From Pigmentiphaga humi (lineage in GTDB: Bacteria > Pseudomonadota > Gammaproteobacteria > Burkholderiales > Burkholderiaceae_B): a DNA stretch of 64,000 bases. The DNA lies in the NCBI RefSeq assembly GCF_900606115.1, contig NZ_UWPJ01000023.1:186001-250000 (forward strand). The letters are read 5' to 3'. The translations under genes were made by a program, and so were the position numbers. How positions within the stretch are numbered: position 1 is the stretch's first letter; every line of letters begins with the position of its first letter. The notes under the pieces are model-generated. The model saw only the letters and a program-made list of their open reading frames with translations, was not told the origin of the DNA and did no database searches. Below are positions 35,881 through 56,654 of the stretch, piece by piece.

Positions 35881-36867
35881 ATGAACCTTGATCTATCCCT
35901 GTCCTGTTTGCCATCCGACCGCACATATCCTCTTTATTACGGGGAAGTCAAGCCGTTCGGGATCGATTTGAATGTGCTGCCGTTCGGCGACGACGACATC
36001 TATTGGTCGTGGAGGAAGGCGCGCAATAACCTCTTCGATGTTTCGGAGATGTCCATCTCGAATTATCTGATCCAGATCGACCGGGGCAGCGCCGATTTGA
36101 TCGCTCTTCCCGTTTTTCTCTCGAGAGGATTTCGCCATGCCAATCTCTATGTCAATCCCGCCTCGGGCATCAGCAGGCCCGAAGACCTGAAAGGGAAAAG
36201 GGTCGGCCTGTCTTTCTACGATCCGACTACACCCGTATGGGTAAGAGGCTTTCTGCAGCATCAATATGGAATCTCCCCCGGCGAGCTGAAGTGGCATTTG
36301 TACGAAATTTCCTTGAAAGGCATGGAAATCGACCTTCCCGGGAATCTGGAGATCCACTACCTGTCGCGCAAAGACTCCCTGGAGAAATTGCTGGTTGAAG
36401 GAAAGATCGATGCCCTGATCAATGCAGGGCAGCCGCCGCAATTATTCCAGGCTGGCGATTCCAGGATAGCGCCTTTATTCGATGATTTTCATCGGGAAGA
36501 GCTTCGTTTCTACGAGAAGTTCAAGATATTTCCGATCATACACACGGTCGTGCTCAAACGGGACATTCACCACGAGCACCCGTGGGTGGCCCAGAGCCTG
36601 TATGACGCCTTTTGCCGCGCCAAGCAGAAGGCCACCCTGTCCAGCATGGCGCTCGACGGGCATTTGAAATATTCCCTTCCGCTCTTGCATGCCTATGTGG
36701 AAGAGACGCAAGAGGTATTCGACAGGGACCCCTGGATCTATGGCGTTTCCAACAACAGGCTTGAGATCGAAACATTGATCCGATACTGCCGTGAGCAGGG
36801 TTTGATCCAGTCCGATCTGTCATTGGAGCGAGCCTTTGTTTCGGATTTGAATGAAGAGCTGTGTTGA
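35881..36867 (+). CDS. 4,5-Dihydroxyphthalate-decarboxylase-like protein (first copy)
   Basis: 328 residues, without a signal peptide, so cytoplasmic although the fold is that of periplasmic binding proteins. Family marks: FDVSEMSISNYLIQ, ADLIALPVFLSRGFRHANLYVN and GISRPEDLKGKRVG, shared with dihydroxyphthalate decarboxylase, which removes CO2 from an ortho-dihydroxy aromatic acid. A paralogue is at 38560. It starts the operon that goes on with a phthalate-type Rieske oxygenase, so it should act after hydroxylation. Its codon use is more A/T-rich than the flanking modules. An NMT1-like binding protein is the alternative, made unlikely by the absent export signal. Confidence 0.8.
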   Translation: MNLDLSLSCLPSDRTYPLYYGEVKPFGIDLNVLPFGDDDIYWSWRKARNNLFDVSEMSISNYLIQIDRGSADLIALPVFLSRGFRHANLYVNPASGISRPEDLKGKRVGLSFYDPTTPVWVRGFLQHQYGISPGELKWHLYEISLKGMEIDLPGNLEIHYLSRKDSLEKLLVEGKIDALINAGQPPQLFQAGDSRIAPLFDDFHREELRFYEKFKIFPIIHTVVLKRDIHHEHPWVAQSLYDAFCRAKQKATLSSMALDGHLKYSLPLLHAYVEETQEVFDRDPWIYGVSNNRLEIETLIRYCREQGLIQSDLSLERAFVSDLNEELC

Positions 36868-36901
36868 TCCGTGTTTTGAGAAGAGTGAGGAGTTGAGTCG
36901 A

Positions 36902-38131
36902 ATGACGCCAGAGCAGAACAGGACCTTGACCAGCGTTGGCAAAGGCACACCCATGGGCGAATTGTTGAGGAGATATTGGCATCCGGTTGGCCTGAGTTCC
37001 GAATTCAAGAACGAATGCGTCAAGAAAGTAAGGATCCTGGGCGAAGAACTGGTGCTGTATCGCGACAGAGCCGGCACGCTCGGCCTGGTCGACAAGAAAT
37101 GTGCGCATCGCGGAGCTTCATTGGAGTACGGGATCATCGAGCATGAGGGCATCCGCTGCGCCTACCACGGGTGGCAATACGATGCGGACGGGAAATGCAT
37201 CGATCGGCCGAACGAACCCGAAGGCAGTACGCAAAGAATCTCTGTCAAGGCCTATCCGGTAATCGAGAGGGGCGAAATGTTGTTCGCCTATCTGGGACCG
37301 GCACCCTTGCCGGAGTTCCCTGCGTTCGAGCTTTTCGAGGGCGGCAACGTAATCAAGACCATCGGGTATGCGGCGATTCCGGTGAATTGGCTGCAGATCA
37401 TGGAAAACACCCTGGATCCCGTGCATGTGGAATGGCTGCATGGGCATTTCTACAAGCAGGAGAAGGGCCGCAGCGACCCCCCTTTCGACACCTTTTCCAA
37501 GCACCACGTAAAGATCGCTTTCGAAGAATTCGAATACGGCATCATCAAGAAACGGCTGCTCGAAGGGCAGGCCGAGGACGAGTCGACGGATTGGACGACC
37601 GGACATCCGTTCATTTTTCCAAACATGCTTCTCGTCGGAGATACCCGGGTAAACCAGTTCCAGATCCGCGTCCCGATGGACGACACCACGACCATGCATT
37701 ATTGGTACAACTGTTTTCACCCGGCGGAAGGGGTCGAGATACCGGAAGGTTACCCGACGACTTCCTACGAAGTTCCGATCAGGGACGAGCGGGGGGAATA
37801 TATCAAGGATTACGTGGACGGCCAGGACATCATGATGTGGGAGTCGCAGGGAGCCATCAATGACCGCACACAGGAGCATCTGGGCGCGACAGACCGCGGG
37901 ATCGTGCAATTCCGCAGGATGCTTGCGCGAGAAATGAACAAGGTGCTGAACGGGGAGGATCCGATGTGCGTTTTCAGGGAGCCTGTCCGAATCGAATTGC
38001 CCATAGAGAAAAGCAGGCACGGCCTGCAGGCCGGCGCCTTCCTGAGTTACACGAAGAGCAGAGATTACCGCTATTCGCCGAACATCGAGGAAATCGTGCG
38101 CATCGTGGCCGGCGACACGGTAAGCGCCTGA
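36902..38131 (+). CDS. Rieske oxygenase, phthalate 4,5-dioxygenase-like
   Basis: 409 residues. Rieske ligands C67, H69, C86 and H89 (CAHRGASLEYG...CAYHGWQYD), iron ligands in N169-T-L-D172-P-V-H175-x4-H180. The N-terminal GTPMGELLRRYWHPVGL and QIRVPMDDTTTMHYWY are typical of the phthalate dioxygenase branch, which works as an alpha-only oligomer with a separate FMN reductase. No reductase is in this module. With a decarboxylase-like gene on each side, hydroxylation of an aromatic diacid followed by CO2 loss is the simplest reading. Ribosome site GAGGAG precedes ATG 36902. Confidence 0.87.
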   Translation: MTPEQNRTLTSVGKGTPMGELLRRYWHPVGLSSEFKNECVKKVRILGEELVLYRDRAGTLGLVDKKCAHRGASLEYGIIEHEGIRCAYHGWQYDADGKCIDRPNEPEGSTQRISVKAYPVIERGEMLFAYLGPAPLPEFPAFELFEGGNVIKTIGYAAIPVNWLQIMENTLDPVHVEWLHGHFYKQEKGRSDPPFDTFSKHHVKIAFEEFEYGIIKKRLLEGQAEDESTDWTTGHPFIFPNMLLVGDTRVNQFQIRVPMDDTTTMHYWYNCFHPAEGVEIPEGYPTTSYEVPIRDERGEYIKDYVDGQDIMMWESQGAINDRTQEHLGATDRGIVQFRRMLAREMNKVLNGEDPMCVFREPVRIELPIEKSRHGLQAGAFLSYTKSRDYRYSPNIEEIVRIVAGDTVSA

Positions 38132-40640: not shown

Positions 40641-41396
40641 GTGAACGATCTGAAAGACAAGACGGTGTTGATTACCGGCGCCTCCACCGGCATCGGTGCG
40701 GGATGCGCGCGAGCCCTGGGCGCGCTCGGCGCCAAGGTCGCGGTGCATTACAACCGCTCCAAATCCGCCGCGGATGAGGTGGTGGCGGACATTCTGGAGC
40801 GCGGCGGCGCAGCCTTCGCGCTGCAGGGCGACCTGCGTCATAGCGCGCAGTGCGAGCGCGTGGTTTCCGAGGCGGCCGCCCGCTGGGGGCGGGTCGACGT
40901 GCTGATCAACAACGCCGGCACGATGCTGCAGCGCTTGTCGATCACCGAACTGACCGACGAGTCGTTCGACGACATCATCGATCTGAACGTGCGCTCGATG
41001 ATGATGTGCACGAAACACGCGGTCGGGCACATGAAGCACGGCGGCAGCATCATCAACGTGACCAGCGTCGCCGCGCATACCGGCGGCGGGCCCGGCGCCT
41101 TGATGTACGCGGGGACCAAGGGTTTCATCAGCGTGGCCACCAAGGGACTGGCACGGGAACTGGTGAGCCGCAACATCCGCGTCAACGCCGTCGCGCCCGG
41201 CGTGATCCAGACGCCTTTGCACGCCAAGTTCTCGACGCCGCAACAGCTCGAAACCCTGCGCCAGGGCATTCCGATGGCGCGCCTGGGCACGGTGGACGAA
41301 TGCACCGGCGCGTTCGTCTATCTCGCGTCGGAGCAGCTCTCGGGCTATGTGACCGGCCAGGTGCTCGAGGTCAACGGCGGGCAGTACATGCCCTGA
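40641..41396 (+). CDS. Short-chain dehydrogenase/reductase (first copy)
   Basis: 251 residues from a GTG start at 40641; the ribosome site is poor. NAD(P)-binding TGASTGIG (12-19) with NNAG (90-93), catalytic S142, Y156 and K160 (YAGTK). The end VTGQVLEVNGGQYMP is a usual SDR finish. It begins 16 bp after the Bug stop. It could oxidise a cis-dihydrodiol made by the Rieske oxygenase or act on a 3-oxoacyl chain (inference). Confidence 0.88.
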   Translation: MNDLKDKTVLITGASTGIGAGCARALGALGAKVAVHYNRSKSAADEVVADILERGGAAFALQGDLRHSAQCERVVSEAAARWGRVDVLINNAGTMLQRLSITELTDESFDDIIDLNVRSMMMCTKHAVGHMKHGGSIINVTSVAAHTGGGPGALMYAGTKGFISVATKGLARELVSRNIRVNAVAPGVIQTPLHAKFSTPQQLETLRQGIPMARLGTVDECTGAFVYLASEQLSGYVTGQVLEVNGGQYMP

Positions 41397-41479: not shown

Positions 41480-42214
41480 ATGCGCTTGAAAGATAAAACC
41501 GCACTCGTGACCGCAGCAGGCCAAGGCATCGGCCGGGCCAGCGCGCTGGCCATGGCCGCACAGGGCGCGCGGGTCCTGGCCACCGACGTCAACCCTGCTT
41601 TGTTGAAGGCTTACGAAGGCGTCGCCAATGTCACCACGGCCACGCTGGATGTCACGGACAAGGCGGCCATTGGCAGACTCGTCGAAGCCATGCCGCGCGT
41701 CGACGTTTTGTTCAACTGCGCCGGCGTCGTCCACAATGGCTCCATCCTGGAGGCGACCGACCAGGAGTGGGAGTTTGCATTCAACCTGAACGTGCGTGCC
41801 CAGTTCTGGGCAATCCAGGCCGTGCTGCCCAACATGCTCGCGGCGGGTTCTGGAAGCATCATCAACATGGCGAGCGTATGCGGCAGCCTGAAGGGTTTGC
41901 CGAACCGTTTCATCTACGGCGCCAGCAAGGCAGCCGTGGTGGGATTGACCAAGGCGGTTGCCGCGGACTTTGTGCGCGAGGGCATCCGCTGCAACTGTAT
42001 CGCGCCCGGAACCGTGGATACACCGTCCCTGGGCGATCGCATCAACAGCTATTCCGATCCGGTGCAGGCGCGCAGGGATTTCGTGGCGCGCCAGCCCATG
42101 GGGCGTCTCGCGCAGGCGGAAGAAATCGCGCCGATTGTTTTGTACCTGGCCAGCGACGAATCGATTTTCGCCACCGGCCAGGTTTTCGCCGTCGATGGAG
42201 GCATGACGATCTGA
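41480..42214 (+). CDS. Short-chain dehydrogenase/reductase (second copy)
   Basis: 244 residues. TAAGQGIG (11-18) with D36 after strand 2 (VLATDVNP), which prefers NAD; catalytic S132, Y146 and K150 (YGASK). The pattern TAAGQGIGRA and the end FATGQVFAVDGGMTI are those of BDH2/2-keto-3-deoxy-L-fuconate dehydrogenase-like SDRs. It follows the first SDR by 83 bp. GC content is again as high as in the rest of the window. Confidence 0.88.
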   Translation: MRLKDKTALVTAAGQGIGRASALAMAAQGARVLATDVNPALLKAYEGVANVTTATLDVTDKAAIGRLVEAMPRVDVLFNCAGVVHNGSILEATDQEWEFAFNLNVRAQFWAIQAVLPNMLAAGSGSIINMASVCGSLKGLPNRFIYGASKAAVVGLTKAVAADFVREGIRCNCIAPGTVDTPSLGDRINSYSDPVQARRDFVARQPMGRLAQAEEIAPIVLYLASDESIFATGQVFAVDGGMTI

Positions 42215-42308: not shown

Positions 42309-43145
42309 ATGGAAGACCAGCCCTCCAATCCAGCCAAGCCCCGTTCGCGCGGCCGTCCCAAGACCGCCAACCCGCGCGGCATCCAATCGACGGCGTCCAG
42401 CCTCGACGTGCTGAAGGTCATGGTGGCCCACAGCGAGCCCATGCATTTGCGCGAGATCGCGGCGGCGGTCGGGCGCGGCACGAGCAGTGTCTACCGGTAT
42501 CTGGTGAGTTTCGTCGAGGCGGGGCTGGTCAAGCAGGACGAAGGCAGCGGCCGCTACGATCTCGGCCCCATGGCGCTCAAGCTCGGGCTTGCGGCCCTGC
42601 GAAGAATCGACGGGGTGGCCGCCGCAACCGAAGAGCTCGCTCGCCTGGTCAAGAACATCGACGCCGATGGCCACGTCACGGTATGGGGTTCGAACGGCCC
42701 CACGGTGCTGCGGTGGCTGGGCAGGCCGAGCGACGTCGTGGTGCGCGTCCAGGAGGGCTGGGTCCTGTCGCTCATGGGATCCTCCACGGGCCGCACCTGG
42801 GCCGCGTATCTGCCCAAGGACATGCTCGACGCAGCGGTGCAGCATGAGTTCGAGACGCGTCCTGCTCCTGCCGGGAGCGGTACGCGGACCGAACGCAAGA
42901 AAGCCTTGGCGCAGGCCACCGAGCACATCCGCGCCCAAGGTTATTCCTACGCCACCGGCGAGCTCCGGAACGGCGTGGATGCTCTGTGCGCGCCGATCTT
43001 CAATCGGCACGGCACGATGGTCTATGCCATTACCCTGGTTTCCCAGAATCCCGGCCTGACGCCCCAGCATCACCCGGAAGTCGTCGAGCAACTGCTCGCC
43101 TCCACGCGTTCCGTCTCCGAGCAGATGGGCGCGACGCTGGCCTGA
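42309..43145 (+). CDS. IclR-family regulator of the self-contained oxygenase module
   Basis: 278 residues. The winged HTH (about 27-90) contains MHLREIAAAVGRGTSSVYRYLV, and the effector domain (about 100-275) ends with the usual ALCAPIFNRHGTMVYAITLV strand. The first 25 residues are a basic linker (KPRSRGRPKTANPRG). It precedes the Bug, beta and fused alpha subunit genes on the same strand, with a 247-bp gap that includes a good promoter under a perfect dyad. Likely controls those genes in response to the aromatic substrate. Confidence 0.88.
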   Translation: MEDQPSNPAKPRSRGRPKTANPRGIQSTASSLDVLKVMVAHSEPMHLREIAAAVGRGTSSVYRYLVSFVEAGLVKQDEGSGRYDLGPMALKLGLAALRRIDGVAAATEELARLVKNIDADGHVTVWGSNGPTVLRWLGRPSDVVVRVQEGWVLSLMGSSTGRTWAAYLPKDMLDAAVQHEFETRPAPAGSGTRTERKKALAQATEHIRAQGYSYATGELRNGVDALCAPIFNRHGTMVYAITLVSQNPGLTPQHHPEVVEQLLASTRSVSEQMGATLA

Positions 43146-43392: not shown

Positions 43393-44370
43393 ATGCCTAT
43401 TACCCGAACCCTGATCAGCACGTTGTTGTGTACGGCGGCCCTGTCGCCCATGGCGGCGCTGGCGGCGACTTTTCCCAAAGAACCTGTCCGCATCGTCGTT
43501 CCCTTTCCCGCCGGAGGGGGCATCGACATCATGGCGCGGGCCCTGTCCGCCGAGCTGTCTCCGCTCTGGGGGCAGCCGGTCATCGTCGAGAATGTCGCGG
43601 GCGCGAACTCCATCATCGGCGCCGAGCGCGTGGCCAATGCCTCAGCCGACGGCTATACCCTGATGATGACCAACCCGGGAACGGTGGTCGGCAATCGCTT
43701 CATCTATAAGCAGCTGCCTTACGATCCGGACAAATCCTTCACGCCGATCACGGTGGTGGCCCGTTCCGGGCAGTTCATCATCGCCAACAGCGCAACGCCG
43801 TTCGGCAATTTGCAGGAGCTCGTGGCCGCGGCCAAGCGCTCGCCCGGCGCGATCAGCTTCTCGACACCGGGCAATGGCTCGCAGGAACAGCTGTTGATGG
43901 CGACCCTGGCCCATCGCGAGGGCATCGAGTTGCTCGACGTGCCCTACAAGGGGATTGCCCCGGCCCTGACCGCCGTCACCGGCAATGCCGTGCAGCTCAC
44001 TGCCACCAGCCCGAGCCTGGCTGCGCCGCTCATCAAGCAGGGCCGGCTGAAGGCGCTCGCCATCGCCGCCGAGCGCCGCTCCACCTCGTTCCCGGACGTG
44101 CCGACCACGGCCGAGGCGGGCATGCCCTACGCGCGGTCGGTCATCTGGTATGGCCTGTTCGGCGTCGCCGGCACGCCGGAGGCGGTTCTGCAGAAAATCC
44201 ACAACGACGTGACCCGCATCGTTCAGCGGCCGGACTTCATCGCCAAGCACATGACGTCGAAGGAACTGGAGCCGGTCGCCAATACCTCGCAGGATTTCGC
44301 CAAGTTCATTCGCGGGGAAGTCGCGGCCACCGCAGATATGGTGAAGGCTGCGGGCCTGCAACCCGAATAG
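43393..44370 (+). CDS. Bug-type solute-binding protein of the fused-oxygenase operon
   Basis: 325 residues with signal peptide (cleaved near LAATFPKE). First loop PKEPVRIVVPFPAGGGID, second loop LLDVPYKGIAPALTAVTG. AGGAG precedes the ATG. It is the first gene behind the promoter at 43.3 kb and shares its transcript with the beta subunit and the fusion gene, so it likely binds the same aromatic substrate. Confidence 0.88.
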   Translation: MPITRTLISTLLCTAALSPMAALAATFPKEPVRIVVPFPAGGGIDIMARALSAELSPLWGQPVIVENVAGANSIIGAERVANASADGYTLMMTNPGTVVGNRFIYKQLPYDPDKSFTPITVVARSGQFIIANSATPFGNLQELVAAAKRSPGAISFSTPGNGSQEQLLMATLAHREGIELLDVPYKGIAPALTAVTGNAVQLTATSPSLAAPLIKQGRLKALAIAAERRSTSFPDVPTTAEAGMPYARSVIWYGLFGVAGTPEAVLQKIHNDVTRIVQRPDFIAKHMTSKELEPVANTSQDFAKFIRGEVAATADMVKAAGLQPE

Positions 44371-44420: not shown

Positions 44421-44936
44421 ATGACTGCATCTTCTCCACCGCTGGCGCAGCAGGACGCCCAGACTCTCCTGTTCCATGAGGCCAGGTGCCTCGACCAAAG
44501 ACGATGGGACGAATGGCTGGCGCTGTTCGAGCCGGACGCCCGGTTCTGGGTGCCGGCCTGGCGCGCCGACCATGAAACGGTGACCAATCCTCGAACGGAA
44601 GCGTCGCTGATCTTCGCCGAGCCCCGCGAACGCATCGCGGAGCGCGTGCGCCGCGTCACGCTGGGGCAGACGCCGACGACCCAGCCCTTGCCCCGCACCG
44701 CGCATTTCGTCAGCAATGTGCAAGTGCTCGGCGCGCACGGCACACGGGACGAGCACCGCGTCAGCGCCACCTGGATGGTCAGGCGCTACGACATCCCCAC
44801 CTATCGGGACGATGTGTTCTATGGCCATTACGACTACGTGCTGCGGCGCACCGGAGACGGACTGCGCATCGCCAGCAAGACGGTGCAGCTGTTGAACGAT
44901 CGCGTCGCGACCTATATAGATTTTCATTGCGTGTGA
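44421..44936 (+). CDS. Ring-hydroxylating dioxygenase beta subunit
   Basis: 171 residues of the NTF2-like fold of aromatic dioxygenase small subunits: LLFHEARCLDQRRWDEWLALF, FEPDARFWVPAW, then RTAHFVSNVQVLG and the C-terminal VQLLNDRVATYIDFHCV. It has no metal ligands; beta subunits stabilise alpha3-beta3 hexamers. It precedes the fused alpha gene by 10 bp, order beta-alpha rather than the usual alpha-beta. Confidence 0.92.
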   Translation: MTASSPPLAQQDAQTLLFHEARCLDQRRWDEWLALFEPDARFWVPAWRADHETVTNPRTEASLIFAEPRERIAERVRRVTLGQTPTTQPLPRTAHFVSNVQVLGAHGTRDEHRVSATWMVRRYDIPTYRDDVFYGHYDYVLRRTGDGLRIASKTVQLLNDRVATYIDFHCV

Positions 44937-44946
44937 GGCCTCTTCC

Positions 44947-47400
44947 ATGAACGAAACCGTGCGCTCGCCCGTGGACATCGAGGCCTTGATCGATGATCGT
45001 CCCGAGGACGGGGTCTTCCGCGTCCATCGAGACGTATACACCAGCCCCGATGTTTTCCAGCTGGAAATGGCGGAGTTCTTCGAGAAGGGGTGGGTCTTCG
45101 TCGGCCTGGCCTCGGAGCTTCCCCGACCGAACGACTACAAGACCGTCGCCATCTCCCGATATCCGCTACTGCTGACCCGTGACGACGCGGGCGAACTGCA
45201 TTGCTTCATCAATTCCTGCCGCCACCGGGGCATGGTCCTCGTGCCGCACCAGAACGGCAACCAGCGCTACCATAGCTGCCGCTACCATGGCTGGGTGTTC
45301 GACAGCGCCGGCCGCTGCGCCGAACTCACGCAGAAGGAAGAGGGCTGCTACCCCCCGGCGCTGAACCCGCGCCTTGCCGATCTGCAGCCCGTGGCCCGCT
45401 TCGCCAATTACCGCGGCTTCCTGTTCGCCAGCCTGTCTCCGGATGTTCCGGAGCTCGAGGCCCATCTGGGCGATGCCAAGAAGTTTCTCGATTTGACGCT
45501 GGACAAGGGCGCAGATGGCATGGAGTTCGTGCCCGGGGCGACGCGCTATACCTTCCGTGCGAACTGGAAACTGCAGATCGAGAACGCGCTGGATATCTAC
45601 CACTTCGGCTATACCCACGCCTCGTACATCGACCTGCTGGCCCGGCGCGCCACCGATAAACTCAAAGGGCAGGCCTCCGCCGAGGAAAAGGACATCCAGG
45701 GTTCGTTCGGGTTTCGCGGCGGGCACGCAGTGCAATGGCGCGAAAATGCCCGCGTCACGCCCACGCTGCTGGAGCGGCGCAAGGCGAGCTATTCGCGCGC
45801 GCTGGACGAGGTGGGCACGCGCTGGGCAGGCTACGGCGTCAATGTCACCATTTTTCCCAATCTGCAGATCGTGGAAAACGTTTCCAGCCTGATCTTGCGA
45901 GTGATTCGGCCATTGCGGGCCGACCTGACGGAAATGGAAGTCCGCTGCCTGGCGCCGGTGGGAGAAGATCCCGATCTGCGCGAAGCACGCATTCGCGACT
46001 ATGAGGATTTCTTCGGCGCGGGCGGCTTCGCCACGCCGGACGACAGCGTCGTCTACGAACTGAGCCAGCGCGGGCTGGAAGCTGCCCAGGCCGATTGGAC
46101 GCTCGGCTATCTGCGCGGCATGGACCGTTCGCGTTTGCCGGCGACGAATCCGTATGAACAGGAGCTGGGCATTGTCTCCGAGGACTGGACCCTGGGCCCC
46201 CGCACCGTCGGCGACGAAAGCCGATTTCACGGCACCTATCGGGCCTGGAGGGAACGCTTGGGCCGCGGCCCCCGCGATGCGCGCGCTGATGCCCCGCAAG
46301 GTCGCCATCGCGCGGGCACGGCGAGCGCGAGCCAGGCACCCGGCCGTTCGCCGCCCGCCGCCGTGTCCGCCGGCTGGCATACCGTTGCCAGCCTGGCCGA
46401 CCTGGCGCCGGGGCGCCCACGCCGGGTGCATGTTGGAACGCTGGCCATCGCGCTGGTCAGGCAGGGCGACGAGATCCATGCGATAAGCGATCGATGTTCG
46501 CACGGCGCGGGGTCGCTGTCCGAAGGCCGCGTGGACGGCCGGGAAATCGAATGTCCGTTCCATGGCGGCCGTTTCGATCTGTCGAGCGGCGCGCCGACGT
46601 CCGCTCCTTGCACGAAACCGGTCAAGAGATGGCCCGCCCGGATCGACGACGGCCGGGTGCAGATCCTGCTGGACGAAACGTCTCCGGCGGAGGATTCCGG
46701 CATGCTCCCTTTGCGGGTGACGCGCCGGTACATGGCCGCTGCCGCTATCCTCGCACTGGAATTCGAGCATGCCCAGGGCGCGCCGCTGCCGGGTTTTTCC
46801 GCCGGCGCGCACCTGGATCTCATGCTGCCGTCGGGCCTCGCCCGTTCCTATTCACTGTGCAACGATCCGGCCGATCCGAGCGTGTACCGGATCGCGGTGC
46901 AACTGGCGAAACCGTCGCTCGGGGGTTCCGAGGAAGTCCACGCGGCGCTGCATGAAAATGTCCGCATTGCCACCAGCATGCCGGTCAACGATTTCGAACT
47001 GGACGAGCACGCGCCGGCGTCCCTGCTCATCGCGGGAGGCATCGGCGTTACGCCGCTCATGGCGATGGCCTATCGGCTGCAGGCGCTGGGCCGGCGATTC
47101 GAATTGCACTATGCGTGCCGTTCGCGCGATTGCATGGCTTTTCTACCGGAGCTCCAGGCACGCTTGGGCCCCGCGCTTCATCTCCATCCGGGCGACGAGG
47201 CCGGCTGCCGCCTCGACCTGGAGGCCTTGCTGGAAGGAGCATCCCGAGATAGCGCCATTTATGTGTGCGGGCCGGATCGCCTGATAAGCGCAGTCGAAGC
47301 GACTGCCCGTAAACTGGGCTGGCCGGATGGCCGCGTGCGCAAAGAGACTTTCGGCGCGGTGCCGGGGGCCGCGGGCCCGCGGCCGGCATCCCTGCCGTAG
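44947..47400 (+). CDS. Three-part self-contained Rieske dioxygenase: alpha subunit + Rieske ferredoxin + flavin reductase
   Basis: One uninterrupted 817-residue frame. Residues 1-435: dioxygenase alpha subunit, with Rieske ligands C91, H93, C111 and H114 and iron site N213-A-L-D216-I-Y-H219-x4-H224 (a carboxylate near D351-D354 would complete it). Residues 436-474: Ala/Pro/Arg-rich linker. Residues 475-575: Rieske ferredoxin with C517, H519, C536 and H539. Residues 585-817: FNR-like reductase with the flavin motif RSYSLCN (633-639), GGIGVTP (697-703) and YVCGP (772-776). It stops just after KETFG (about 799-803), where phthalate dioxygenase reductases would continue into a plant-type [2Fe-2S] domain. 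All electron carriers thus sit on the catalytic chain; only NAD(P)H is needed. Beta subunit is encoded just before. Substrate unknown, probably a substituted benzoate. Confidence 0.92.
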   Translation: MNETVRSPVDIEALIDDRPEDGVFRVHRDVYTSPDVFQLEMAEFFEKGWVFVGLASELPRPNDYKTVAISRYPLLLTRDDAGELHCFINSCRHRGMVLVPHQNGNQRYHSCRYHGWVFDSAGRCAELTQKEEGCYPPALNPRLADLQPVARFANYRGFLFASLSPDVPELEAHLGDAKKFLDLTLDKGADGMEFVPGATRYTFRANWKLQIENALDIYHFGYTHASYIDLLARRATDKLKGQASAEEKDIQGSFGFRGGHAVQWRENARVTPTLLERRKASYSRALDEVGTRWAGYGVNVTIFPNLQIVENVSSLILRVIRPLRADLTEMEVRCLAPVGEDPDLREARIRDYEDFFGAGGFATPDDSVVYELSQRGLEAAQADWTLGYLRGMDRSRLPATNPYEQELGIVSEDWTLGPRTVGDESRFHGTYRAWRERLGRGPRDARADAPQGRHRAGTASASQAPGRSPPAAVSAGWHTVASLADLAPGRPRRVHVGTLAIALVRQGDEIHAISDRCSHGAGSLSEGRVDGREIECPFHGGRFDLSSGAPTSAPCTKPVKRWPARIDDGRVQILLDETSPAEDSGMLPLRVTRRYMAAAAILALEFEHAQGAPLPGFSAGAHLDLMLPSGLARSYSLCNDPADPSVYRIAVQLAKPSLGGSEEVHAALHENVRIATSMPVNDFELDEHAPASLLIAGGIGVTPLMAMAYRLQALGRRFELHYACRSRDCMAFLPELQARLGPALHLHPGDEAGCRLDLEALLEGASRDSAIYVCGPDRLISAVEATARKLGWPDGRVRKETFGAVPGAAGPRPASLP

Positions 47401-48098: not shown

Positions 48099-50504
48099 AT
48101 GAATGCGATCCATCCCCGCAGAAGCGCGGCCCAGACGGCTGGCTGGCTGGTGCTGCTCCTGGTTGCGCTGTATTCGCTGTTCGGCGGCGTCTGGCTGGCG
48201 GCGCTGGGCGGCTCGTGGTATTACGCCGCCGTGGGCGTGGCTCTGCTGGCGAGCGCGTGGTGCCTGCGGCGCAACCGTACGGCGGGGTTGTGGCTGTACG
48301 CGCTGATCCTGGCCGCGACGCTGCTCTGGGGGATATGGGAAGCCGGCGCGGATTTCTGGGCGCTGGCGCCGCGCTACGACGTGCTGTTCCTGCTGGGACT
48401 GTGGCTGCTGCTGCCGCCGGCCACGCGCGGTTTCATCGCGCCGCGGCCCGCCAAGACGGCCATCGGCCTGGCGATGGCGGGCATGCTGGCGGTACTGGGC
48501 TACGGCATTGTCGACGACCCGCAGGAAACCCACGGCACGTTCAGCCGGGCCCAGCCGGCGCAGACTCGGCCGGTGGCTGGCGTGGCCGAAGAGGACTGGC
48601 CGGCCTACGGGCGCACGGAGGGCGGCGTGCGCTATTCACCGCTGGCGCAGATCAACGAAGGGAACGTCCAGGATCTGCGGGTCGCATGGACCTACCGCAC
48701 AGGCGATTTCAGGACCGACAACGATTCGGCCGAGACCACCAACCAGGTCACGCCGATCAAGATCGGCGACAAGCTGTTCCTGTGCACGCCGCACCAGTTC
48801 CTCGACGCGCTCGATCCCGCGACCGGCCGGCGCCTATGGCGCTACGACCCGAAGCTGAAGGCCGACAAGACGTTCCAGCATCTGACCTGCCGTGGCGTGG
48901 CGTATCACGACGCCGGCAATGCGCAGCGTTTCCCGGCCAGCGCGGCCAAGGCCGAGGGCGCCGTATCGGCCGTCTGCCCGCGCAAGGTGCTGCTGCCTGC
49001 CAACGATGGTCGGCTGATCGCGGTGAATGCCGACAGCGGCCGGAAGTGCGGCGATTTCGGCAACGACGGCGAGATCGACCTGCAGAAAAGCATGCCTCAT
49101 GCCTACCCGGGGGGCTACAACCCGACTTCTCCGCCGGTGGTGACCGCATCGACCATCGTCATCGGCGGTTCGGTGACGGACAACTTCTCCAGCCAGGAGC
49201 CGTCCGGCGTGATCCGCGGCTACGACGTGCGCACCGGCGCGCTGAAATGGGTGTTCGACACCGGCGCGGAAGATCCCAACGCGATGCCCGGCGAACATAC
49301 GCGGTTCACGCCCAACTCGCCCAACGCCTGGGCGCCGCTGGCCTATGACGCGCAAACCGACGTGGTCTACGTTCCCACCGGCGTGGGCACGCCCGACATC
49401 TGGGGCGGCAACCGCGATCAGTTGAAAGAACGCTACGCCAATTCCGTACTGGCGCTGGATGCGACGACCGGCCGCCTGATCTGGCGCTTCCAGACGACGC
49501 ATCACGATCTGTGGGACATGGACGTGCCGGCTCAGCCTTCGCTGATGGACGTGACGCTGGACGGCGGCCGGACCGTGCCGGCGATCTACGTGCTCACCAA
49601 GACCGGCAACGTGTTCGTGCTGGATCGCCGCAGCGGGCAGCCCATCGTGCCGGTAGCGGAAAAGGCCGTGCCGCAGAGCGTGGCGCGGGGCCCGCAGGCC
49701 CGGGGCGAGCGCTACGCGCCCACGCAGCCGTTCTCGGCGCTGAACCTGGCGCCTCAGGACAAGCTCACCGACAGGGACATGTGGGGCGCCACCATGCTGG
49801 ACCAATTGATGTGCCGCGTGATGTTCAAGCGCCTCAACTACGACGGCGTCTATACGCCGCCGTCCGAGAACGGCACGCTGGTGTTCCCGGGCAACCTGGG
49901 CGTGTTCGAATGGGGCGGCATGTCGGTCAACCAGGACCGGCAGGTGGCGCTGATGAACCCGATCGGGCTGCCGTTCGTCTCCAGGCTGATTCCGGAGGAT
50001 CCGGACCGCACGGTAGGGACGAAGGAAGAGGGGTCGGAAAGCGGCGTGCAGCCGATGTACGGCGTGCCGTATGGCGTGGAACTGGGCCCCTTCCTGTCGC
50101 CGCTGGGCCTGCCATGCAAGGCGCCGGCCTGGGGCTATGTGGCCGGCGTGGATCTGCAGAGCAACCAGGTCGTGTGGAAAAAACGCATAGGCACCATCCG
50201 CGACAGCCTGCCGCAGCTGTTCCAGCTGCCCCCGCTGAAGATCGGCGTGCCGGGCCTGGGCGGCCCCATCTCGACCGCCGGCAACGTCATGTTCGTGGCG
50301 GCTACGCAGGACAACTATCTGCGCGCCTATGACGTCGGCAGCGGCAGGCTGCTGTGGGAAGCCCGCCTGCCCGCCGGCGGCCAGGCCACGCCGATGACCT
50401 ATGCCGTCGGCGGCAAGCAGTACGTGGTGATCATGGCGGGCGGCCACGGCTCCTTCGGCACCAAGATGGGGGACTATCTGGTGGCTTACGCCTTGCCGGA
50501 TTGA
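48099..50504 (+). CDS. Membrane-bound PQQ-dependent dehydrogenase (glucose/quinate/shikimate type)
   Basis: 801 residues. Five N-terminal membrane helices (about 15-137) anchor it; the rest is a periplasmic eight-bladed propeller starting at DWPAYGRTEGGVRYSPLAQI. Repeated tryptophan-docking motifs such as GRLIWRFQTTHHDLWDMD and RLLWEARLPAGGQATPMTY are visible, and GTPDIWGGNRD holds the region of the catalytic Asp. It oxidises a sugar or cyclic polyol in the periplasm and feeds ubiquinone. Quinate/shikimate oxidation, leading to protocatechuate, would fit the aromatic theme; glucose is equally possible. No pqq genes are in the window. Confidence 0.9.
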   Translation: MNAIHPRRSAAQTAGWLVLLLVALYSLFGGVWLAALGGSWYYAAVGVALLASAWCLRRNRTAGLWLYALILAATLLWGIWEAGADFWALAPRYDVLFLLGLWLLLPPATRGFIAPRPAKTAIGLAMAGMLAVLGYGIVDDPQETHGTFSRAQPAQTRPVAGVAEEDWPAYGRTEGGVRYSPLAQINEGNVQDLRVAWTYRTGDFRTDNDSAETTNQVTPIKIGDKLFLCTPHQFLDALDPATGRRLWRYDPKLKADKTFQHLTCRGVAYHDAGNAQRFPASAAKAEGAVSAVCPRKVLLPANDGRLIAVNADSGRKCGDFGNDGEIDLQKSMPHAYPGGYNPTSPPVVTASTIVIGGSVTDNFSSQEPSGVIRGYDVRTGALKWVFDTGAEDPNAMPGEHTRFTPNSPNAWAPLAYDAQTDVVYVPTGVGTPDIWGGNRDQLKERYANSVLALDATTGRLIWRFQTTHHDLWDMDVPAQPSLMDVTLDGGRTVPAIYVLTKTGNVFVLDRRSGQPIVPVAEKAVPQSVARGPQARGERYAPTQPFSALNLAPQDKLTDRDMWGATMLDQLMCRVMFKRLNYDGVYTPPSENGTLVFPGNLGVFEWGGMSVNQDRQVALMNPIGLPFVSRLIPEDPDRTVGTKEEGSESGVQPMYGVPYGVELGPFLSPLGLPCKAPAWGYVAGVDLQSNQVVWKKRIGTIRDSLPQLFQLPPLKIGVPGLGGPISTAGNVMFVAATQDNYLRAYDVGSGRLLWEARLPAGGQATPMTYAVGGKQYVVIMAGGHGSFGTKMGDYLVAYALPD

Positions 50505-55379: not shown

Positions 55380-55448
55380 AGCCAGGCCGCACGCTCGGCT
55401 CCAACATGCCTCCCGGCGGGAGGCGTCGATCCCTTGATTGGAAGAATC

Positions 55449-56654
55449 ATGCAAGCTAGTACATCACGCCGTCCGCTGCGCATCGCGATCGCCGGGGCGG
55501 GCATAGGAGGACTGACCGCCGCGGCGGCGCTGCACCAGCGCGGCTTCGACGTCCAGGTCTACGAACGCGCAGCGAGCCTGGGCGAAGTCGGCGCGGGGCT
55601 GCAGATGGCGCCCAACGCCGTCAAGGTCGTGCGCGCCCTGGGCCTGGAAGACGAATTCAGGAAGTTCGCGCCCGAGCCTTCGGTGAGGCTGTCGCTGACC
55701 TGGGACAGCGGCGCCGTGCGCGAGCGGGTCCCCATGAGAGAAGCCATGCGCCGCCAATACGGCGCCAGCTATCACACCGCGCACCGGGCCGACCTGCATG
55801 CGCTGCTGGCGTCGCGCGTCCCCGAAAGGGCCATCCATACCGGGGCCGAATGCGTGGGCGTGGAGCAGACGGCGTCCGGAGCCGTACTGCGCCTGGCGGG
55901 CGGCCGCGACGTCGAGGCCGACGTGGTCATCGGCGCCGACGGCATCCATTCCCGTGTGGCCCGCCAGTTGTTCGGCGAACGCGAGGCGCGTTTCACCAAC
56001 CAGATCTGCTGGCGCATCATCCTGCCCATGGACGAACTGCGCGCCGCGGCGTCTTCGCTGCCGGTCCCCATGGACGGCAGCGAGTACACCGGCTGGCTGG
56101 GGCCGTCGGGACACGTGCTGTTCTATCCGCTGCGGGGCGGCGAACTGCTCAACATCTTCGCCGGACGCGTGTCGAGCGACGACTGGGCCGAGGAAAACTG
56201 GGCGGTGCCCAGCGACATCGGCGAAATGCTGACGGCCTATGCGGGATGGCATCCGGCCATGCTGCAGATGCTGTCGCGTGCGCAGGAGGTCTACAAATGG
56301 GGCATCCGCGACCGCGACCCGCTGGCCGCCTGGGTGCAAGGCAGGATCGCGCTGCTGGGGGACGCGGCGCATCCGATGATGCCCACCCTGGCCCAGGGCG
56401 CGGCCATCTCCATGGAGGACGGCTACGCGCTGGCGCACTATATCGATCGCGGGCGGGACGACCCGTTGGCTGCGCTCGCGGCCTACGAGCGGGAACGCCA
56501 GCCCCGCGCTTCCAAAGTGCAGCGCCAGGCGCGCGATCAGTTCCGCAACAATCAGCTGAACCCGCCTCCGCTGCCGCTGCCTGTGGACTGGATTTACGGC
56601 TACGACGTGGCCACGCTGCCTGATGCCTCGATGCAGCCGGCCCACGCATCGTAA
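55449..56654 (+). CDS. Salicylate-hydroxylase-like FAD monooxygenase
   Basis: 401 residues, class A flavin monooxygenase. FAD motifs GAGIGG (16-21), GADGIHS (162-168), GDAAHPM (304-310) followed by MPTLAQGAAISMEDGY. The pattern LQMAPNAVKVVRALGLED and the C-terminal PLPVDWIYGYD fit salicylate/6-hydroxynicotinate-type hydroxylases; it is a distant paralogue of the gene at 10759. The enzyme hydroxylates, often with loss of CO2, an ortho-hydroxy aromatic acid. GGAAG precedes ATG 55449. It is the last gene of the IclR-controlled block. Confidence 0.87.
   Translation: MQASTSRRPLRIAIAGAGIGGLTAAAALHQRGFDVQVYERAASLGEVGAGLQMAPNAVKVVRALGLEDEFRKFAPEPSVRLSLTWDSGAVRERVPMREAMRRQYGASYHTAHRADLHALLASRVPERAIHTGAECVGVEQTASGAVLRLAGGRDVEADVVIGADGIHSRVARQLFGEREARFTNQICWRIILPMDELRAAASSLPVPMDGSEYTGWLGPSGHVLFYPLRGGELLNIFAGRVSSDDWAEENWAVPSDIGEMLTAYAGWHPAMLQMLSRAQEVYKWGIRDRDPLAAWVQGRIALLGDAAHPMMPTLAQGAAISMEDGYALAHYIDRGRDDPLAALAAYERERQPRASKVQRQARDQFRNNQLNPPPLPLPVDWIYGYDVATLPDASMQPAHAS

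Follow-up and report, generated by a model that had tools for sequence, protein, structure and literature searches.

Within the window analyzed, a 64,000-nucleotide stretch of the Pigmentiphaga humi genome (RefSeq assembly GCF_900606115.1, contig NZ_UWPJ01000023.1, positions 186,001 to 250,000), two adjacent genes were found to encode the beta subunit of a ring-hydroxylating Rieske oxygenase and, 10 bp downstream, a protein in which an oxygenase alpha subunit, a Rieske ferredoxin and a flavin reductase are joined. The following features were assigned, with coordinates given in the window and residues numbered in the fused protein.

44421..44936, + strand: beta subunit of ring-hydroxylating oxygenase, 171 aa (open reading frame, ORF; PF00866, Ring_hydroxyl_B, 7.5e-38)
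44947..47400, + strand: fused alpha, Rieske ferredoxin and flavin reductase, 817 aa (ORF, Pfam and PDB sequence matches)
44947..46266, + strand: oxygenase alpha part, residues 1-440
45217..45288, + strand: alpha Rieske [2Fe-2S] ligands C91, H93, C111 and H114
45592..45618, + strand: bridging D216 and iron ligands H219 and H224
46042..46044, + strand: carboxylate iron ligand D366
46267..46368, + strand: interdomain linker, residues 441-474, Ala/Pro/Arg/Gly-rich
46369..46671, + strand: Rieske ferredoxin domain, residues 475-575, ligands C517, H519, C536 and H539
46696..47349, + strand: flavin/NAD(P) reductase module, residues about 584-801
47350..47397, + strand: short disordered C-terminus, where phthalate dioxygenase reductase (PDR) would run into its [2Fe-2S] domain

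The fused frame starts with ATG and runs through 817 codons with zero internal stops. Using Pfam, the Rieske family was identified in two stretches (1.6e-38) and Ring_hydroxyl_A at residues 198-380 (1.3e-15), while sequence matches to PDB entries assigned residues 22-380 to the naphthalene dioxygenase (NDO) alpha subunit (1.3e-42), residues 477-574 to the carbazole ferredoxin CarAc (7.6e-24) and residues 578-806 to PDR (2pia; 3.7e-36). With E-values of this order, chance matching is of no concern. As read from the sequence, oxygenase, electron carrier and flavin reductase thus all lie on one chain, with the beta gene adjoining the alpha part. The unbroken frame, the short gap to the beta gene, the order of the domains, both sets of Rieske ligands and the iron-site histidines had been described in the initial annotation, and each was reproduced; the domain search that it proposed recovered both Rieske domains and Ring_hydroxyl_A, with the FNR part weak in Pfam and clear against 2pia.

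Rieske oxygenase alpha subunits carry the motifs C-X-H-Xn-C-X2-H and D-X2-H-X3,4-H-Xn-D (PMC5209329). The first is present in the alpha part as C91/H93 and C111/H114 and the second as D216, H219, H224 and D366, and all of these residues are invariant in two alignments (12/12 and 25/25 rows, own row included). The bridging D216 and the carboxylate D366 were added to the earlier iron site by alignment to NDO, in which D366 corresponds to D362 (number counted from the alignment) and D216, H219 and H224 to D205, H208 and H213. Alignments with the five closest alphas extend to residue 438 or 440, and a helix at residues 419-439 of the structure model closes the alpha part. In the ferredoxin domain, C517, H519, C536 and H539 are invariant in 12/12 rows (own row included), and the closest NCBIfam model was the AndAb ferredoxin (residues 477-573), which scored 95.5 bits against a cut-off of 150.

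The reductase module is of the PDR type in both its flavin-binding and its NAD-binding parts, with the motifs RSYSL (633-637), GGIGVTP (697-703) and CGPD (774-777) in columns that are invariant or nearly so. Its Pfam signal is weak, consisting of NAD_binding_1 (7.6e-5; 23.8 bits, cut-off 22) and a DmmA-like_N match below cut-off, and no FAD-binding or Fer2 family was found in the fused protein by the Pfam scan at E 0.001. By analogy with PDR and the CYP116B type, the module is predicted to hold flavin mononucleotide (FMN) rather than flavin adenine dinucleotide (FAD). A C-terminal plant-type [2Fe-2S] domain is defining for reductases of the PDR/VanB type and in PDR follows the flavin module. 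Here the alignment to 2pia stops at its residue 229 of 321 and the chain ends soon after, in a tail with a predicted local distance difference test (pLDDT) score below 50. The reductase therefore stops, as the initial annotation had it, where the plant-type domain would begin. The further proposal that the Rieske ferredoxin had replaced that domain fits the absence of the plant-type domain, and is refined in that the Rieske domain precedes the flavin module whereas the [2Fe-2S] domain of PDR follows it.

Structure models, all of single chains, were built on alignment A7, with FNR rows alone, and A8, with alpha rows alone; A1, A3 and A6 had been discarded for placing ferredoxin rows (in A1 also FNR rows) on the wrong domain. 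As a result of this choice of rows, neither model had relatives to guide the fold of the ferredoxin, and A8 had none for the reductase either. The full-length model is unreliable in the FNR part, with pLDDT below 50 at residues 577-683, and the fold-comparison lists were filled by FNR structures and are uninformative on the Rieske part.

The closest alphas among 61 related genomes were unfused and 53-56% identical, and were found in four other species of the genus and on another contig of the same genome. The latter belongs to an unfused alpha-beta pair (locus L102; genome G000, contig C10, 17000-29000), which shares about 55% identity with the fused alpha. At three of the five close alphas (C10, G008 and G001), tblastn (E 1e-4) over 12-15 kb found nothing resembling the fused ferredoxin or FNR, a reading that is blind to reductases of another type and that reached to about 5 kb from the C10 pair. 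A midpoint-rooted tree of 33 rows was built, comprising the fused row, 24 of the 27 alpha rows gathered for A1 (all but L092, L093 and L095) and eight plasmid rows taken from tblastn alignments; the Bradyrhizobium CadA was outside this set. In this tree the fused alpha groups with the five unfused alphas of its genus (100/99), and the next fork (100/99, ten rows) adds a four-row clade (100/100) of CadA from pCADAB1 of Sphingomonas sp. ERG5 and three sphingomonad relatives. The fused alpha, on a long branch, thus lies outside the CadA clade and adjoins it, with a warning from the tree program that the placement of long rows is unsure.

CadA is the closest characterized relative found, at about 44% identity (43-48% over the alpha in the four clade rows), which displaces the benzoate-type direction taken initially. 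The BenA model (TIGR03229, residues 11-436) scored 320.7 bits against a cut-off of 780.95 and the BenB model, with the beta subunit, 112.5 bits against 225.55, so that both subunits match the benzoate 1,2-dioxygenase models BenA and BenB far below their cut-offs. BenC has a plant-type cluster. A benzoate dioxygenase with a fused BenC was rejected on the low BenA score and the lack of such a cluster; among the plasmid rows, L106 and L108 have a BenC gene. In the CadA clade, 4/4 loci have a gene for a Rieske ferredoxin after the alpha-beta pair, and three of the four have one for an FAD-dependent oxidoreductase directly before alpha; the ferredoxin CadC was reported to be essential in a Bradyrhizobium (PMC3877037). 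From these ferredoxin genes and the CadC reports, it is probable that the ancestor relied on a Rieske ferredoxin acting in trans, which this lineage would use in cis, together with a PDR-type reductase lacking the plant-type cluster. Elsewhere in this genome, FNR matches reach at most 41% identity, so no recent within-genome copying is evident.

Further fused copies were sought in overlapping sets of genomes, all of them samples except those of the genus and the family; up to 16 candidates were scored per genome with the full-length query, all with the genus set and at most 5 to 7 with the others. With the full-length query (61 genomes, E 1e-50), 13 of the 61 genomes matched, and among the matches listed only the own one passes residue 480. 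With the C-terminal query, matches were obtained in 10 of 11 genomes of the genus (E 1e-20), 11 of 399 of the order (E 1e-45), two of 369 of the class (E 1e-50) and seven of 398 of the phylum (E 1e-50), and among the matches listed only the own one spans ferredoxin and FNR; the single match in 268 genomes of the family (E 1e-50) was also the own. The class of another genome (385 genomes, E 1e-55) gave no match, the own genome being outside that set and the search hence without a positive control. Two matches of the order search reach the ferredoxin range. One (G167) has a stop inside; the other (G418, locus L027, contig C21) is a 587-residue frame that by eye combines a pyridoxamine-oxidase-type domain with a PDR-type reductase carrying a plant-type cluster.

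A pattern scan with the C-terminal part across 84,980 species, each represented by a single genome, which reaches close relatives only and may omit the own or a very near genome, returned 59 stretches at 41 loci and no second fused copy. Two screens covered loci up to L098: the own locus, present in three copies, was the only one to combine Rieske, flavin and NAD motifs in a single frame (motif screen, 73 loci), and among 3067 frames from 95 loci (98 minus the three own copies) BLAST found 37 ferredoxin and 29 FNR matches, with no frame in both. Of 72,556 plasmid records, 480 matched the full-length query, none covering at least 80% of it, and 382 matched the C-terminal query, two of them (SBC1 and Caballeronia SBC2) covering at least 80%. 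The SBC2 match was rejected as a fused copy, as by eye it consists of a separate oxygenase gene and a reductase with a plant-type cluster. These results support a fusion that is rare rather than unique, and the negatives do not show its absence from nature.

We consider it probable that the locus encodes an alpha-beta Rieske oxygenase related to CadA whose alpha chain bears its own redox partners, giving a one-chain path from NAD(P)H to iron. The usual scheme passes electrons through separate partners (PMC12445004). From the domains and their ligands we infer that NAD(P)H would reduce the flavin, predicted to be FMN, which would in turn reduce the adjacent Rieske ferredoxin domain. On its flexible tether of roughly 34 residues, that domain could dock on its own or a neighboring alpha. 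Electrons would be handed over one at a time to the Rieske cluster of the alpha part and continue by way of D216 to the iron bound by H219/H224/D366, the site at which O2 would react with an aromatic acid or an aryl ether. The assembly is expected to be alpha3beta3. For CDO, docking and mutation are reported to place the ferredoxin site in a side depression between the alpha and beta subunits (PMC12445004), and the tether might reach a site of this kind on either alpha. A close match of the fused FNR module, the reductase part of CYP116B46, was reported to support the Rieske oxygenase KshA by means of its own plant-type cluster, which was found necessary, and conversion rose from 68.4% to 80.6% on adding a free Rieske ferredoxin (PMC10992505).

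The neighborhood fits aromatic acid catabolism and includes the following genes, the Bug-type receptor being named by eye from its translation.

36851-38131: second Rieske oxygenase, about 6 kb upstream, with Rieske and LigXa_C/VanA_C-like C-terminal parts
40641-41396, + strand: short-chain dehydrogenase, upstream of the gene pair
41480-42214, + strand: short-chain dehydrogenase, upstream of the gene pair
42309-43145, + strand: IclR regulator, upstream of the gene pair
43393-44370, + strand: Bug-type receptor, upstream of the gene pair
48099-50504: membrane-bound pyrroloquinoline quinone-dependent dehydrogenase, glucose/quinate/shikimate family, just downstream (1094.7 bits, cut-off 832.65)
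55434-56654: FAD monooxygenase, nearest to the 3-hydroxybenzoate 6-monooxygenase model and below its cut-off (259 vs 459 bits)

A glyoxalase-like gene (minus strand) and a fumarylacetoacetate hydrolase gene are also found downstream, and no reductase gene was recognized among the neighboring ORFs scanned beside the second Rieske oxygenase. For the substrate, kinship to CadA suggests an aryloxyacetate or some related aromatic acid.

Several observations weigh against an active one-chain oxygenase. The fusion was found in one genome only, and as a single sequence it has no second copy to speak against an indel in the linker, which is a weak point. The codon signal is weak in three segments of the linker (0.00, 0.02 and -0.03), and a reverse frame stands slightly above frame 0 in one linker segment (0.02 vs 0.00) and one FNR segment (0.13 vs 0.09). 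The fused alpha has a branch length of 0.64 compared with 0.025-0.12 in the five closest rows, which could mean relaxed constraint. Two plasmid rows outside the CadA clade (L107 and L109) have no ferredoxin or FNR like the fused ones in the stretch read. The roles of the ferredoxin and oxidoreductase of ERG5 are stated as unknown, and the oxidoreductase was reported to be dispensable for activity in another Sphingomonas (PMC3877037). Artificial fusions are described as having attenuated activity (PMC12445004), and reductases reportedly became inactive after removal of the [2Fe-2S] domain (PMC10992505), so that with no plant-type domain present the Rieske domain must take over that role.

Were the fusion real, its C-terminal module might still mainly serve other oxygenases in trans, such as the C10 alpha-beta pair or the 36851-38131 oxygenase, and be insufficient or unused in cis. 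The C10 pair has no ferredoxin or FNR like the fused ones within about 5 kb, another Rieske oxygenase lies nearby, and reductases are usually moderately promiscuous (PMC12445004). However, with covalently linked partners, transfer inside the chain or the oligomer is the default expectation, and the neighboring CadA clade has its Rieske ferredoxin gene beside alpha-beta; we regard service in trans as unlikely. A sequencing or assembly indel, by which the linker joins an alpha gene and a ferredoxin-reductase gene that are in reality separate, is rated as improbable. It would agree with a fusion seen solely in its own genome among the samples searched and with a GC-rich linker of weak frame signal, and an in-frame GTG at 46363 could initiate a ferredoxin. 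Against this, frame 0 outscores the two other forward frames in every segment tested, linker included, the domains follow one another in a single frame without any missing part, and the linker, predicted to be disordered (pLDDT below 50 at 441-474), resembles a domain tether in the model. By eye, the GTG has no upstream Shine-Dalgarno-like sequence, which carries little weight since none is clear before the beta ATG either. The same-frame codon signal favors a true fusion over a frameshift, with weak contrast within the linker, and even after an indel the remaining Rieske ferredoxin-FNR fusion would be unusual. A decaying or nonfunctional fusion heading for loss, to which the long alpha branch and the single occurrence would be suited, is likewise improbable given the intact cluster and iron ligands, the intact flavin and NAD(P) motifs and a frame open across 817 codons.

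The components of the proposed one-chain oxygenase are known and, as far as searched, their order on one chain is apparently undescribed. CadA/CadB/CadC (with a putative CadD), the oxygenase of Sphingomonas sp. ERG5 for 2,4-dichlorophenoxyacetic acid (2,4-D), which CadA-type enzymes convert to 2,4-dichlorophenol, has a similar alpha-beta oxygenase of the neighboring alpha clade and an adjoining Rieske ferredoxin gene; it differs in that the ferredoxin, cadC, and the FAD-dependent reductase, putatively cadD, are separate genes (PMC3877037). For the joining of a Rieske domain and a reductase, the nearest precedent is NdmD of the caffeine demethylase system, with a reductase of the FMN/NADH type (PMC4408171, PMC12445004). 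In 2015, NdmD was described as the sole Rieske reductase reported to have an additional [2Fe-2S] cluster (PMC4408171). NdmD combines Rieske, FMN/NADH and plant-type [2Fe-2S] parts and no oxygenase, whereas the fused chain has an alpha part and no plant-type domain was found in it. The CYP116B self-sufficient P450s (6kbh, 6laa) similarly carry an oxygenase and a PDR-type reductase on one chain, with a heme P450 and a plant-type cluster in place of the Rieske oxygenase and Rieske ferredoxin found here. Their reductase being of the same PDR type, they are a better P450 analogue than P450-BM3, with which the initial annotation compared the path; a one-chain path itself is still predicted. That annotation knew of no described enzyme with this order, and no description of alpha, Rieske ferredoxin and reductase in this order on one chain was found in the open-access literature (most subscription papers and all preprints lying outside this scope); according to a 2025 review, a self-sufficient Rieske oxygenase system is still to be identified, and artificial fusions could lead to one (PMC12445004).

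On balance, we lean toward the fused protein being a first natural, complete and catalytically self-sufficient Rieske oxygenase, with the NAD(P)H site, flavin, donor and acceptor Rieske clusters and catalytic iron on one alpha, in an alpha3beta3 assembly that would carry three tethered reductases. If so, it would provide a linker and domain order arrived at by evolution for a self-sufficient Rieske oxygenase, would let the docking of a Rieske ferredoxin on an alpha-beta oxygenase be tested directly, and may serve as a starting scaffold for biocatalysis needing no separate partners.
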